From assembly GCA_013373015.1 (NCBI GenBank), contig JABXIQ010000019.1, positions 1 to 44,784 of the forward strand: 44,784 nt of DNA. The letters run 5' to 3'. Positions 3,919 to 8,604 of the stretch are shown one piece after another. The position numbers were made by a program, and so were the translations under genes. The notes below the pieces were generated by a model that worked only from the letters and a program-made list of their open reading frames with translations, was not told the DNA's origin and made no database searches. Source of the stretch: Kangiellaceae bacterium. Lineage in GTDB: Bacteria; Pseudomonadota; Gammaproteobacteria; Enterobacterales; Kangiellaceae. Position 1 is the stretch's first letter. Every line of letters starts with the position of its first letter.

Positions 3919-5187
3919 ATGACATTGCAAATATTTCTTTCAGACCAGCCCGCTCCAAAACAATGGGGTGAGTCAGCTTTACTCAGTTATGGTGAAGATA
4001 AAGTTACCATTCATAATCACGATCCTGAATCTATTCAAATAGCGGCTCGTAAGTTAGCTGCTCAAGGCTTATCTTTCTTCGCCTTACAAGGTGGTTGGCA
4101 GCTTGAACAACAATGGGCTTTTTTCCAAGGAGCTTATGACCCTAAGTTTGATGTTCAGATCGAGTATGACGAGCTTAATGATGAGCAAAGCCAAGAATTG
4201 GACGCGCGAGTTCAAGTGAGTCGTTGGATGCGCTCAATTGTTAATGAAACGCCAGAAATTTTAGCTCCAGAAGTGTTAGCGCAAGAAGCTGCAGATTTTA
4301 TTCAAGGCCTAGCACCAAGTCATGTACGCTATCAAATCATTAAAGGTGAAGACTTAGTTAAGCAAGGTCATATTGGCACTTGGGAAGTGGGGCGTGGTAG
4401 TGAACGACCACCAGCGATATTAAAACTAGAGTTTGATCCGAACAATGATGGCGCCGCACCTGTAGCGGCTTTAGTGGGTAAAGGGATTACTTTCGATAGT
4501 GGCGGCTATAGCATTAAGCCGAGCGCTGGCATGTTGCACATGAAAGCCGACATGGGCGGTGCCGCAACAGTAACTGGTGGTTTGGCTTTAGCGATCTTGC
4601 GTGGGTTAGATAAACCTGTCCATTTATATCTGTGCTGTGCTGAAAACTTGATCAGCGGTCATGCTTATAAGCTGGGCGATATTTTGACCTATCCCAATGG
4701 TGTAACAGTAGAAATACAAAATACCGATGCGGAAGGACGAATTGTGTTAGCGGATGGTTTGTTATTAGCAGGCCAGTCAGGCGCAGAAACTATTATTGAT
4801 GCAGCGACTTTAACAGGCGCTGCGGTTACCGCCTTGGGTGAAGATTATAATGCGGTATTTGCTTTAGATGATGTGGCTAGAGCACATTATTTGAAAGTCG
4901 CCAGTGAAGAAAGCGAACGCCATTGGCCGCTGCCGTTAGAGCCTTTTCACGCTGCAAAATGCCCTTCAAATTTCGCTGAAACAGCAAACAGCCGTCCTGT
5001 GAAAGGTGGCGGTCCTGGAGGAGCAAGTAACGCGGCAGGCTTCTTGTCACGCTTTGTTCCGAATGAAGGCAAAGGTTGGATCCATGTAGATTTAGCGGCA
5101 GCGTATCGCGATAACGCTACTGCAAAATGGTCAGCAGGTGGTACAGGTGTTGGCTTTAGGGCGATTGCGAGACGTTTGCTTAATTAG
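3919..5187 (+). CDS. pepB: Aminopeptidase PepB (M17 family)
   Basis: This is a cytosolic leucyl-aminopeptidase-family enzyme that removes N-terminal residues from peptides using two metal ions. At 422 residues it matches the compact PepB subgroup in length and along the whole chain, rather than the longer PepA. The metal and active-site blocks are visible: VGKGITFDSGGYSIKP, MKADMGGAA and the M17 signature NTDAEGRIVLADGL. It ends in convergent overlap with the acetyltransferase gene: the stop codons share bases 5184-5187. It stands alone, so its role is probably general peptide turnover. It lies near the borosin genes but on the other side of the acetyltransferase gene. Confidence 0.94.
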   Translation: MTLQIFLSDQPAPKQWGESALLSYGEDKVTIHNHDPESIQIAARKLAAQGLSFFALQGGWQLEQQWAFFQGAYDPKFDVQIEYDELNDEQSQELDARVQVSRWMRSIVNETPEILAPEVLAQEAADFIQGLAPSHVRYQIIKGEDLVKQGHIGTWEVGRGSERPPAILKLEFDPNNDGAAPVAALVGKGITFDSGGYSIKPSAGMLHMKADMGGAATVTGGLALAILRGLDKPVHLYLCCAENLISGHAYKLGDILTYPNGVTVEIQNTDAEGRIVLADGLLLAGQSGAETIIDAATLTGAAVTALGEDYNAVFALDDVARAHYLKVASEESERHWPLPLEPFHAAKCPSNFAETANSRPVKGGGPGGASNAAGFLSRFVPNEGKGWIHVDLAAAYRDNATAKWSAGGTGVGFRAIARRLLN

Positions 5188-5729
5188 TCAAGATAAGAGC
5201 ACTCCTCTTTGAGCAAGGTATAAAGGGGAGTGTCGTAATATACTTCGTTTATTTTCCAATTTGCTCTTAATAAGGCTTCCTGTTGATACTCAGACTTCTC
5301 TAAAATTTTAATACAACTTTTATTATCTATGATAGGAGGCCCATTTAGCTTATTAAATCCTATTTCATTGAAGCAGTATTTAGTCATTGATTTTAAGATC
5401 TCGGTACCAAGCCCTAATGACTGATATTCTTCAAGTAGCATCACCCCCATATTCGCTTGCATAGTCGCTTTGTCAAATGTTTTGAAGCCGCACAAACCGA
5501 TGTCTTTATCATAGATTTTGTGATGAACGACAAGAAGGCAATAGTTTGAACTGTTGAGTTGCCATTCTTTAAGTTGTAAAGGAAATGACTTTTCTGCTTG
5601 CGCAACAGAAAGTGTTGGGGCTATATACTTCATTATATTGCTATCAGTATAAATTGATTTATATAACTCAAGATGAGACTGATTGAGCGAATAGAATAAA
5701 AGATTGTCTGAACTAAAGGTATGTTTCAT
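5184..5729 (-). CDS. GNAT family N-acetyltransferase
   Basis: The product of about 181 residues is of the RimJ/RimL-like GNAT type. The acetyl-CoA-binding motif A is seen as YQSLGLGTEILKSM, preceded by the beta-strand segment ANMGVMLLEEY. FNKLNGPPIIDNKSCIKILEK is the usual later stretch with the Asn-x-x-Ser turn. The start at ATG 5729 is chosen over a TTG at 5744; neither has a strong ribosome site. It is divergent from the borosin methyltransferase gene by about 60 bases and overlaps the end of pepB. Its substrate cannot be read from the sequence. A tailoring role in the neighbouring peptide pathway is only a possibility, and the base composition of this stretch looks AT-rich like its borosin neighbours. 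Confidence 0.82.
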   Translation of the reverse strand: MKHTFSSDNLLFYSLNQSHLELYKSIYTDSNIMKYIAPTLSVAQAEKSFPLQLKEWQLNSSNYCLLVVHHKIYDKDIGLCGFKTFDKATMQANMGVMLLEEYQSLGLGTEILKSMTKYCFNEIGFNKLNGPPIIDNKSCIKILEKSEYQQEALLRANWKINEVYYDTPLYTLLKEECSYLD

Positions 5730-5791
5730 ATAGGTAGTGATCAAGTCATTGTTGGTGTATTCTTGAGTTCTGATTATATATAAAAAATGAG

Positions 5792-6556
5792 ATGAAAAAA
5801 GGCAGATTAGATTGTGTAGGCTTGGGTATAACTCTTGGGGCTCATATCACTCCAGAAGCAATGAGTGTTCTTGCAAATGCGGATGTGGTTTTTACAGCTA
5901 CGTCTAGCGGGATTGTTGAAGAGTGGGTTAAAACTATTAATAAGAATACTATTAGCTTGCAGACTTTATATGCAGAAGGGAAGTCGCGTAAACAAACTTA
6001 TAATGACATGGTGGACATGCTGCTAAAGCATGTGCGAGCTGGGGAAAATGTTTGTGGTGCTTTTTATGGACATCCAGGTGTATTTGCTTTGGCCCCACAT
6101 AAAGCAATAAAAAAAGCCAAAGCGGAAGGTTTTGAAGCTAAAATGCAACCAGGGATTTCAGCGGAAGATTGTTTAATTGCTGATCTTGGCTTAGACCCAG
6201 GAGCAACAGGGTGTCAACAGTTTGAGACAAGCCAATTCATGTTCTATCATAGGGTGATTGACCCTGCCTGCATGGTTATTTTGTGGCAAATAGGTTTAGC
6301 TGGTGATCAAGATTCAAAGGCGTTTTCAACTGATACCCATAAATTAAAGGAGCTGATATCTTTATTAAGTAGAGTGTATTCGTTAGAACATGAAGTTATA
6401 GTATATGAGGCAAAAGTTTTGGCTATTGATGAGACCCGCATAGAAAAAATTAAACTTAAAGAGCTAGCGGATATACATTTAACTCAGAGTAGTACATTGG
6501 TGATACCACCTAAAACAAGATTAATTGACATTAAGTTAGAAAATAGTGTTGAATAG
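5792..6556 (+). CDS. Split-borosin peptide alpha-N-methyltransferase (SonM/OphMA-like)
   Basis: This 254-residue SAM-dependent methyltransferase has the tetrapyrrole-methylase fold. It matches enzymes that N-methylate backbone amides of a ribosomal peptide. Seen in the sequence: the N-terminal LDCVGLGITLGAHIT strand and loop, Y60 in the LYAEGKSRKQTYNDM helix with R66 and Y70, Y92 in FYGHPGVF, the PGISAEDCLIADLGLDP block (SAM site), and a C-terminal VIPPK. The spacing of Y60, R66, Y70 and Y92 equals that of the catalytic Y66, R72, Y76 and Y98 which I recall for OphMA, shifted by six. Unlike OphMA there is no fused core peptide; the chain ends soon after the VIPPK strand, as in SonM. The substrate is almost certainly the product of the next gene, 30 bases downstream. 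The ribosome site is poor (ATGAG only), in contrast with the next gene. The family call is strong; the identity of the product is not known. Confidence 0.93.
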   Translation: MKKGRLDCVGLGITLGAHITPEAMSVLANADVVFTATSSGIVEEWVKTINKNTISLQTLYAEGKSRKQTYNDMVDMLLKHVRAGENVCGAFYGHPGVFALAPHKAIKKAKAEGFEAKMQPGISAEDCLIADLGLDPGATGCQQFETSQFMFYHRVIDPACMVILWQIGLAGDQDSKAFSTDTHKLKELISLLSRVYSLEHEVIVYEAKVLAIDETRIEKIKLKELADIHLTQSSTLVIPPKTRLIDIKLENSVE

Positions 6557-6586
6557 CCAAGTTATTAAATAATTCAGGGGACGTAT

Positions 6587-6832
6587 ATGAACAATATTAT
6601 CAATGTTTTAGATGCCGTAGCAAAATCTGGTTCTAACCTGTCGCAAGAAGAGATTGTTGCATTATGTGAAAATGCTTGCTTATCTGATGCAGAAACAAAA
6701 GCAATTATTGCAAAAGATCACCAGAAAATTGCAGAGTTAATGAATGCAAGACAGAATGTATGCGCAATATTAGTACCTGCAGAAGATGATGAAGATGATT
6801 CGGATAGCGATTCTGAAGAAATAGCTGCTTAA
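6587..6832 (+). CDS. Split-borosin precursor peptide (SonA-like)
   Basis: The 81-residue product is read as the methyltransferase substrate. Residues 1-55 look helical. The segment L32-L51 (LSDAETKAIIAKDHQKIAEL) aligns without gaps to the second half of the borosin binding domain of SonA from Shewanella, with the Leu, Asp, Ala, Lys and Leu pattern kept. The predicted core follows: V58-C59-A60-I61-L62-V63-P64. By position from L51, I61 and V63 correspond to the two residues methylated in SonA; this is inference. The C-terminus is an acidic run of Asp, Ser and Glu from E66 to E78, unlike the short SonA tail. A strong ribosome site, AGGGGA at 6576-6581, five bases before the ATG, fits high expression relative to the enzyme. 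Four stop codons in a row end the frame. Confidence 0.85.
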   Translation: MNNIINVLDAVAKSGSNLSQEEIVALCENACLSDAETKAIIAKDHQKIAELMNARQNVCAILVPAEDDEDDSDSDSEEIAA

Positions 6833-6837
6833 TAATA

Positions 6838-8604
6838 GTGAAGCGAACTAGGAATACAAGTTATAAAAATAAAGCCTCAAGTTTAATCGCTTGGGGCTTT
6901 GGTTTATTCTTGAGTTTTTCTGTCTACGCAGAAAAAACTTCAGTTGAAGAGCTTTTGATAGAAGCCGATGCAATAAAAAGTAGTGATTTCTTGCAGCTTG
7001 AGAAATTTCTAATTGAAATTGAGGCTCAAGAAGCAGATCTCTCTTCGGCACAGCAAGAGTTTTATAAATACTTACAAAGCTATTCGCTTGCTTATAAGGG
7101 GGATTATGAGCAAGCACTTAGGGGGTTTGAGTCTCTTGCAAAAATATCAGATCAAGTGGAATTATCATATCGAGCTAGAATATCACTTGCAAATATCTAT
7201 GCAATAACTCGGGATTATTCAAAAGGTTTCAAAAATTTGCATGAGCTGATTGCTAATAACCATAATATTAGTAATGACGAAATAAGGCAGCAAGGGTTAA
7301 TTATTGCTTCTCTCATCTATAATACCTATCAAAAATATGATCTCAGTAAGGAATATGCAGGCAAGTTATTACAAGAAAGCCCCACAGGGCGAAACTTGTG
7401 TTTTATAAAACAGCTGCAACTGGATTCAATGTTTCAATTAGATGAGTTGCAGTCTGTGGAACAAGAGCTCAATGAAGGTGTTTTATTGTGCGAAGATGCA
7501 AAAGAAAATATTGCTGCAGCTCTACTCAAAATCAATATAGCTCGTCATTATTTAAATAACTCTGATGCGATGAAAGCGCTCGAGTACTTAGAAGGCCACT
7601 CAAGTTCTATTCACGATACAAACTACCCTAGAGTAATAGCGGAGTACTATATTTTATTTGCAAGAGCAAAATGGCAACTCGGAGAGCAAGGTGATGCTAT
7701 TAACTTTGCAAGTAAAGTGTTAGATATCTCGGATAATGATCGATTTATAAAGCCGAGAGTTATGGCTTATGCCTTATTGCACGAGATAAAAAAGGCTAAT
7801 GGCGATTTTAAGATGGCGCTAGATTATTACGAAAAATATTCAGAAGCAGATAAAGCTCAAATAAACGAAATTCTTGCTCAGCAATTAGCCTACAACATTG
7901 TTGAGCAGCAAACGCAGGAAAAAGTACAAGAGATTAAGCTGCTAAATAAACAAAACGAAGTATTAACCCTGCAACAAAATCTTGCAAAGAAGGAAGCTGC
8001 TAATGATAAGCTTGCCATTGCATTATTAGTTTCTATTCTTGGCTTTATTGGTTTTTGGACTTATCGCATAAAACGTAATCAAATTAAATTGCGTAAGCAA
8101 GCTGAAGTAGATCAGCTAACAGGTGTTAGTACACGCCATCATTTTTACGAGTCTGCTAGAGCCTTGTTGCAGAGTTGCGAATCTTCCGATCAAGAGGTGT
8201 CATTTATTTTATTTGACATGGATAGCTTCAAGAAAATTAATGATCATTATGGACATTTAGTTGGCGATTACGTGCTGAAAGAGGCGTTATCGGCATCTAT
8301 GGTCTGTTGGCGTAAAAATGACTTGGCTGGACGATTGGGTGGTGAAGAGTTTGCTATTTTATTACCAGCTTGCGACTTGGATAAAGCGGCTCAAATTGCA
8401 GAGCATTGTCGTAGAAAAATTTCCGAAGTTGACACTAGCGAATCAGGCCATCAGTTTCCAATCTCAGCTAGTTTTGGTGTAACCAGTAGTAAATATTCAG
8501 GTTATGAGCTTAAAGAGCTCATTGCAGACTCTGATCGCATGATGTATGTCGCGAAAGATGAAGGGCGTGATAGAGTTAAAGTGATTAACAGCGGTATTTA
8601 CTAG
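6838..8604 (+). CDS. Membrane diguanylate cyclase with periplasmic TPR-like sensor
   Basis: The 588-residue protein has a signal peptide (MKRTRNTSYKN basic part, hydrophobic SLIAWGFGLFLSFSV, cut after VYA). A helical, TPR-like periplasmic region spans about residues 30-345. A coiled coil (about 350-392) and a transmembrane helix (IALLVSILGFIGFW) follow, then a cytoplasmic GGDEF domain. The active site is GGEEF near residue 502, and RKND just before it is an inhibitory I-site, so it should make c-di-GMP under product feedback. The GTG start at 6838 overlaps the stop codons after the precursor gene and has no ribosome site of its own, which suggests reinitiation after the precursor is translated. 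A terminator-like hairpin lies within the signal-peptide codons. Whether it belongs functionally to the borosin pathway is unknown. Confidence 0.9.
   Translation: MKRTRNTSYKNKASSLIAWGFGLFLSFSVYAEKTSVEELLIEADAIKSSDFLQLEKFLIEIEAQEADLSSAQQEFYKYLQSYSLAYKGDYEQALRGFESLAKISDQVELSYRARISLANIYAITRDYSKGFKNLHELIANNHNISNDEIRQQGLIIASLIYNTYQKYDLSKEYAGKLLQESPTGRNLCFIKQLQLDSMFQLDELQSVEQELNEGVLLCEDAKENIAAALLKINIARHYLNNSDAMKALEYLEGHSSSIHDTNYPRVIAEYYILFARAKWQLGEQGDAINFASKVLDISDNDRFIKPRVMAYALLHEIKKANGDFKMALDYYEKYSEADKAQINEILAQQLAYNIVEQQTQEKVQEIKLLNKQNEVLTLQQNLAKKEAANDKLAIALLVSILGFIGFWTYRIKRNQIKLRKQAEVDQLTGVSTRHHFYESARALLQSCESSDQEVSFILFDMDSFKKINDHYGHLVGDYVLKEALSASMVCWRKNDLAGRLGGEEFAILLPACDLDKAAQIAEHCRRKISEVDTSESGHQFPISASFGVTSSKYSGYELKELIADSDRMMYVAKDEGRDRVKVINSGIY
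6871..6900 (+). terminator. Terminator-like hairpin after the borosin precursor
   Basis: An 11-bp stem with one T-G wobble (6871-6881 with 6890-6900) and an 8-base loop lies 38 bases after the precursor stop, inside the first codons of the diguanylate cyclase gene. T-rich sequence follows but is interrupted (GG, then TTTATT, then a later TTTTT). It could be an attenuator that lets more precursor than cyclase RNA be made, or it could occur by chance within the signal-peptide codons. Confidence 0.45.

Follow-up and report, generated by a model that had tools for sequence, protein, structure and literature searches.

A Kangiellaceae DNA stretch of 44,784 nucleotides (the window) almost certainly carries a split borosin pathway, judged by sequence comparison: the gene at 5792-6556 would encode a backbone N-methyltransferase and the gene at 6587-6832 its own precursor. 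The two functions thus lie on separate genes, as a split borosin requires. We lean towards a wider reading, in which a protease-processed, N-methylated peptide would be sensed by the adjacent TPR-diguanylate cyclase. Taken as a borosin, the locus adds one more member to a known family; the cassette as a whole, which has a core class, a protease and a sensor of its own, amounts to a variant. A sequence-only reading had already proposed the split pathway. To it are added here the large family to which the precursor belongs, the TPR-GGDEF and GNAT genes, an unlinked protease gene and a second borosin locus. The features are as follows.

5184..5744, minus strand: GNAT acetyltransferase gene (Pfam Acetyltransf_3, E 1.1e-15), divergent from the methyltransferase gene here
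5792..6556, plus strand: predicted split borosin peptide-backbone N-methyltransferase, 254 aa (SonM match, active-site residues, class A branch)
6576..6580, plus strand: AGGGG, putative ribosome-binding site of the precursor gene, read from the sequence six bases ahead of its ATG
6587..6832, plus strand: class A borosin precursor peptide, 81 aa (genus-excluded profile, SonA-type profile, AlphaFold2)
6587..6751, plus strand: leader, residues 1-55, proposed borosin-binding helical domain (alignment A1, AlphaFold2 model, SonA similarity)
6752..6784, plus strand: proposed core QNVCAILVPAE, residues 56-66 (longest conserved block of alignment A1, consensus VCxLxPAEDDE)
6785..6829, plus strand: acidic tail, residues 67-81 (D/E-rich tail in most class A precursors)
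6838..8604, plus strand: signal peptide-TPR-membrane helix-GGDEF protein, proposed sensor diguanylate cyclase, 588 aa (Pfam, hydropathy, AlphaFold2)

The methyltransferase belongs with borosin enzymes

Both ORFs lie on the plus strand exactly where the sequence-only reading had placed them (254 and 81 aa). That reading had singled out Y60, R66, Y70 and Y92 of the enzyme by the spacing of the catalytic residues of OphMA. All four are there, aligned with SonM Y58, R67, Y71 and Y93, and the motifs FYGHPGVF and SAEDCLIADL that it named can be read in the translation. SonM and SonA form the type IV split borosin of Shewanella oneidensis, in which these four SonM residues were mutated and measured (PMC8429565). 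The window pair resembles SonM-SonA in having a separate methyltransferase and a short precursor and in keeping the four active-site residues.

The best PDB match of the methyltransferase is SonM (E 5.5e-69), and the fungal enzymes dbOphM, OphMA and MroMA are matched at E 2.1e-46 to 3.5e-44. Against the NCBIfam corrin and YabN models it scored far under the cut-offs; for YabN it reached 53.7 bits, compared with 525 required. We also built a quick tree of 73 rows, for which class A, class B and unclassified rows (defined below) were drawn at random from a larger set. SonM grouped with 14 SonA-type rows in a supported clade. Unlike SonM, the window enzyme sits in a separate branch (SH-aLRT 98), which holds all 30 class A rows and nothing else. 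Two tetrapyrrole methylases of the same genome fall outside the borosin rows, on very long outgroup branches and in a tree that holds no corrin methylase. Hence the phylogeny that the sequence-only reading had named as its own test does not place the enzyme inside the tetrapyrrole methylases, within these limits of outgroup and sampling. A corrin or sirohaem methylase identity was rejected on the NCBIfam scores, the PDB matches and the tree, and a split borosin pathway is supported as the best reading by the matches to SonM, dbOphM, OphMA and MroMA.

The precursor has a family of its own

The earlier reading had aligned precursor residues L32-L51 to SonA without gaps. This alignment is real and, taken alone, weak: it scores 32 (BLOSUM62) over 20 residues, a value attained by 11 of 1000 shuffled versions of the precursor and by none of 86 other small ORFs. 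Given these 11 shuffles, we dropped the gapless match as proof by itself. SonA was absent at E<=10 from a phmmer search of the precursor against PDB chains. Profiles were more telling. A SonA-type profile from which class A rows had been left out found the window precursor at E 0.0019 over residues 29-61, ahead of all other window segments (669 searched; runner-up E 2.9). At E<=0.001 the same profile picked out 15 of the 55 distinct class A precursors but none of 661 other small ORFs; hence, at the level of sequence, the class A and SonA precursor families probably share their leader by distant descent.

Is the window ORF truly a precursor? From 44 class A precursors of other genera we built a profile; it had a sole significant match among the 669 window segments, at 6569-6829 on the plus strand (E 1.9e-17), with the next matches at E 1.3 and 3.3; its 44 rows had been picked using an earlier profile that contained the window and its genus. 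Without the acidic tail, this profile still found the precursor at E 1.3e-14. Since both the 44-row profile and a family of 54 loci single it out, we take the window ORF to be a real precursor. The claim that it differs clearly from SonA also stands: it belongs to a family of its own, here called class A, to which SonA is a distant relative only.

AlphaFold2 predicted helices at residues 3-17, 20-29, 34-41 and 45-51 of the precursor (mean pLDDT 80.7), that is, four helices where the borosin-binding domain has five. Foldseek with this model gave a best E of 1.5, and no SonA chain stood among the 50 listed of 83 matches. The class A architecture is a helical leader (from the model of the window member), a conserved core of about VC-x-L-x-PAED(D) and a D/E-rich tail (38-row alignment A1). 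The modelled helical leader and the distant sequence similarity are shared with SonA; the conserved VC-x-L-x-PAEDDE core and the acidic tail set the window precursor apart from it. No signal peptide was seen in the precursor by eye. The acidic tail is presumably removed upon maturation.

Class A recurs in several genera

"Class A" is a label coined in this analysis and may equal a published borosin type; class B denotes SonA-type loci. The listing of methyltransferases had 145 rows; before counting, 126 of the loci were read together with their flanks and 19 were left out, one of which (G002), read afterwards, proved to be SonA-type. Eight more loci were added and three duplicates removed, giving 131 loci: 54 class A, 56 class B and 21 unclassified, the last being those without a recognised precursor. 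The class A and class B profiles behind these counts were grown iteratively on the same loci at E<0.001, and their weakest members stand near 5e-4. A class A precursor ORF lies near the methyltransferase in the 54 non-redundant loci, which span several genera.

Within the window's genus, 12 genomes carry class A and 8 do not, one of the 8 (G008) being 55% complete. In the 8 genomes without it, pepA adjoins thpR-mrcB, so that the site occupied by the cassette in class A genomes is empty. One genome from outside the order sample (G012) was assigned to class A manually when the species tree was made, and a later check of its precursor gave E 3.1e-23. A promoter scan of the window stayed below background (8 found, 12.4 expected).

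A TPR-GGDEF protein and a GNAT enzyme accompany the pair

The product of 6838-8604 matches the GGDEF family of Pfam at E 8.1e-41, and its TPR_12 match falls under the cut-off of that family. AlphaFold2 modelled the protein at pLDDT 91.5 with an N-terminal half of helical repeats, and Foldseek matched the model to GGDEF structures (best E 9.4e-15). Motif and fold are those of a diguanylate cyclase, with GGEEF at residues 501-505 and RKND five residues before it. The N-terminus looks signal-like by eye and hydropathy gives one hydrophobic stretch, at 388-411; hence the TPR part, at about residues 33-380, is predicted to be periplasmic. Within it, C188 and C218 (7399-7401 and 7489-7491) are invariant in 51 of the 51 rows of alignment A2 and could form a periplasmic disulfide. 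A terminator-like hairpin at 6870-6901 lies inside the start of the TPR-GGDEF frame as called, at a frequency near background (3 found, 2.1 expected).

TPR, GGDEF or both lie downstream of the methyltransferase in all 54 class A loci (TPR in 52; GGDEF in 51, including L072 through a partial match only). The 20 genomes of the genus carry 7 to 35 GGDEF genes each. GGDEF is also not special to class A: it stands downstream in 22 of 56 SonA-type loci and upstream in 15 of 21 unclassified loci, hence no single core has the cyclase link to itself. In having TPR or GGDEF genes alongside, the window locus is like many of the SonA-type loci sampled.

Upstream of the methyltransferase, at no more than 1.1 kb, 43 of 54 class A loci have a GNAT gene (on the same strand in 40), compared with 2 of the 56 class B loci and 1 of the 21 unclassified ones. 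In the window and two further members of the genus it is on the opposite strand. That the GNAT enzyme acetylates the peptide is a guess.

A shewasin-like aspartic protease co-occurs with class A

Away from the borosin genes, on contig 47 (G000), this genome encodes an aspartic protease (PF00026, E 5.3e-15) with the motifs DTGSS and DCGSS and no signal peptide by eye. Its top PDB matches are BACE1 and BACE2. It thus has the marks of a shewasin, namely two catalytic Asp motifs, membership of family A1 and BACE as the nearest solved relatives. The shewasin D paper calls shewasins close to BACE and reports acid, pepstatin-sensitive activity for shewasin D (PMC4814920). By that description, the protease here is like shewasins A and D in its Asp motifs, the lack of a signal peptide by eye and BACE as nearest relative (PMC4814920).

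How closely does this protease follow class A? A PF00026 protease is encoded by 43 of the 394 genomes in the order sample. Of the 48 class A genomes, 37 have it, versus 0 of 47 other methyltransferase-bearing genomes, while 6 genomes have it without class A and 340 have neither. The shewasin profile (A3) matched in none of those 6. Among 57 class A loci, 25 have the protease gene linked on the upstream side of the methyltransferase (among the 54 non-redundant ones, 23), with its end 0.5-1.1 kb before the latter, and the sole other protease-linked locus is a stretch common to a class A locus. With its protease and GNAT neighbours, class A is unlike the SonA-type loci, where these stand at 0 of 56 and 2 of 56. 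In the window's genus the protease is present in 12 of 12 class A genomes (separate from the cassette wherever the locus was read) and absent from the 8 others, a pattern that amounts to one event on the species tree, not twelve, and that weakens the co-occurrence there.

Eleven class A genomes lack a PF00026 match. Three are fragmented drafts (G031, G074, G395), 7 have a core without PA[EDK], and the shewasin profile found in the eleven just one 57-residue stretch, in a single genome, upstream of the methyltransferase. The protease is present in 34 of the 38 class A genomes whose core has PA[EDK] and in 3 of the 10 whose core has not, counts that ignore kinship. Because of the co-occurrence and linkage with class A, we consider it probable that the aspartic protease is the maturase of the precursor. 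Lee et al. (2024, ACS Chem Biol) reportedly identified a borosin precursor as the native substrate of shewasin A.

Beside the unlinked protease gene of the window genome lies a gene for a ZnuD-like TonB-dependent receptor (L169). Long ORFs beside the protease at L170-L172 resemble it by eye. As a general partner the TonB receptor found no support, as none of 26 fetched stretches around linked proteases carries a relative.

The core covaries with the TPR part of the neighbour

Perhaps the peptide and its proposed sensor have changed together? The covariation analysis covered 49 class A loci out of 54; in 38 of the 49 the core has the PA[EDK] motif. Controlling for methyltransferase and GGDEF, core distance correlated with TPR distance at partial r 0.36-0.54 in the five larger subsets (0-2 of 1000 permutations). 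For core and methyltransferase the partial r was -0.07 to 0.06 in class A loci, and for core and GGDEF -0.07 to 0.09 (with ranks, 0.19 and 0.21 in the two sets retaining odd cores). Core and protease did not covary (0.035, 22 loci), the link between core and GNAT was weaker (0.21; 6 of 1000 permutations, 40 loci), and core and signalling helix gave about 0.3 beyond TPR. The leader followed the methyltransferase (0.36-0.57, five larger sets) and also the TPR part (0.31-0.45). With these further links of core and leader, the core-TPR signal is not wholly specific. In the window's genus alone (11 loci), core-TPR covariation was weaker, at 0.305 (54 of 1000 permutations).

When cores were simulated on gene trees, the observed value was reached in 107 of 500 runs on the TPR tree, 10 of 500 on the joint tree and 0 of 500 on the methyltransferase tree. 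These simulations indicate that the core tracks the history of the sensor gene and not that of the enzyme. They also show the permutation counts to be inflated by shared ancestry, and hence the core-TPR covariation is suggestive only. Co-adaptation of core and TPR is suggested.

Other borosin loci

The same genome holds a second borosin locus (L002, G000:C49:26644-27372). There a SonA-like precursor (SonA E 3.9e-9) directly precedes a methyltransferase 46% identical to that of the window, followed by a TPR protein with a signal-like start and no GGDEF; a glycine-cleavage-like gene lies beside it, by eye. Elsewhere in the sample, at L085, a borosin methyltransferase is followed by an ORF of 144 residues that contains some six near-identical repeats of SHKALIITPKAQA. 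The ORF lies about 757-1191 bases past the start of the second methyltransferase (oriented) and has the look of a multi-core precursor. At L075, L077 and L078 there are forms with two repeats (KLLLLEPT..HKLLLLTP). At L072 (G219, genus g10) the class A precursor is present in two near-identical copies whose core is altered; a TPR match is missing, GGDEF matches in part only, and of the protease there is just the 57-residue match. Here the partners may be decaying together.

Discussion

We propose the following mechanism. By homology to SonM, the methyltransferase would bind the precursor, a separate peptide of 81 residues, by its helical leader and would methylate backbone amides in the hydrophobic core, at about residues 56-66, in the N- to C-terminal direction. 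The shewasin-like protease, unlinked in this genus and adjacent to the methyltransferase in many relatives, would then cut the precursor. The freed N-methylated peptide would get to the periplasm and bind the TPR domain of the adjacent membrane protein, and this binding would control the GGEEF diguanylate cyclase domain, closing an autocrine circuit from peptide to c-di-GMP. That the peptide is the ligand of the TPR sensor we infer with some doubt, as a possibility not far short of even. Against sensing in the periplasm stand the precursor, in which no signal peptide was seen by eye, and the neighbours read, among which no exporter was identified.

A precedent for a TPR-controlled cyclase exists for the sensor step. 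In RcbB, a TPR-GGDEF protein of Vibrio vulnificus, the TPR part represses cyclase activity and the operon partner de-represses it (PMC12282931). The locus here is like RcbAB in placing a TPR-GGDEF protein beside the gene for a possible controlling product, and it differs in that the RcbAB partner is another TPR protein, found at the cell pole (PMC12282931). The word methyltransferase is absent from that paper (PMC12282931).

The proposed sensor may also be set beside the RRNPP receptors in general. In these receptors, such as Rap and PlcR, a TPR domain senses a small peptide; they are cytoplasmic and have other outputs. The TPR proposed here would likewise act as a small-peptide sensor, and unlike theirs it is predicted to be periplasmic, with a GGDEF output. 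A cytoplasmic receptor of RRNPP type for an imported peptide does not fit the signal-like N-terminus and the single stretch at 388-411 (hydropathy and eye).

Might the locus instead make an ordinary secreted borosin product, for example an antimicrobial or metal-binding one, with the TPR-GGDEF protein merely timing production or sensing something else? This has an appreciable chance of being right, although we do not expect it. GGDEF genes beside SonA-type and unclassified loci fit it, the acidic tail could bind metal, and in the window genome the protease gene adjoins the ZnuD-like TonB receptor gene. Relatives of that receptor are nevertheless missing from all 26 stretches fetched around linked proteases, and no other block of the precursor is conserved over as great a length as the core, which is not what a diversifying toxin would show. 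The core also covaries with the TPR part and not with methyltransferase or protease, which is suggestive only. Another thought is that the methylated precursor works inside the cell as a whole small protein that keeps its tail and regulates the neighbouring proteins. The D/E-rich tail of most class A precursors and the precursor's lack of a signal peptide by eye speak for it, as does the build-up of shewasin D in the cytoplasm noted in its description (PMC4814920). We judge it unlikely, given the strong association with an aspartic protease and the covariation of the core with the predicted periplasmic part of the neighbour.

Very improbable, finally, is a tetrapyrrole methylase relative with some other substrate beside an unrelated small ORF. 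The Pfam family assigned to the enzyme is indeed TP_methylase, a superfamily that includes borosin enzymes too. PDB matches and tree put the enzyme among the latter, and the precursor family accompanies the methyltransferase in 54 loci of several genera. We retain the split borosin whose processed peptide would be sensed by the adjacent TPR-diguanylate cyclase.

Not all single links of this cassette are new, because the link between the protease and borosins has reportedly been described in part already. The same holds for GGDEF, since a GGDEF domain is present in a figure legend on borosin types (PMC11395268). For a class A core family with a matching sensor, no description was found in the searchable literature, outside which lie most subscription papers, including two main split-borosin surveys.

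For one class of borosins, the cassette puts forward a core, a protease and a sensor, and it predicts c-di-GMP output as an assay. The recurrence of the gene set in other bacteria suggests that the peptide could be a signal. More tentatively, this class may consist of peptide signals, each a defined peptide made by backbone N-methylation and aspartic-protease cutting, whose N-methylation perhaps lets the peptide cross the inner membrane without an exporter, the window locus being one autocrine c-di-GMP circuit. If this holds, bacteria would have a new kind of signal, namely a backbone-methylated peptide that works through a TPR-cyclase receptor.
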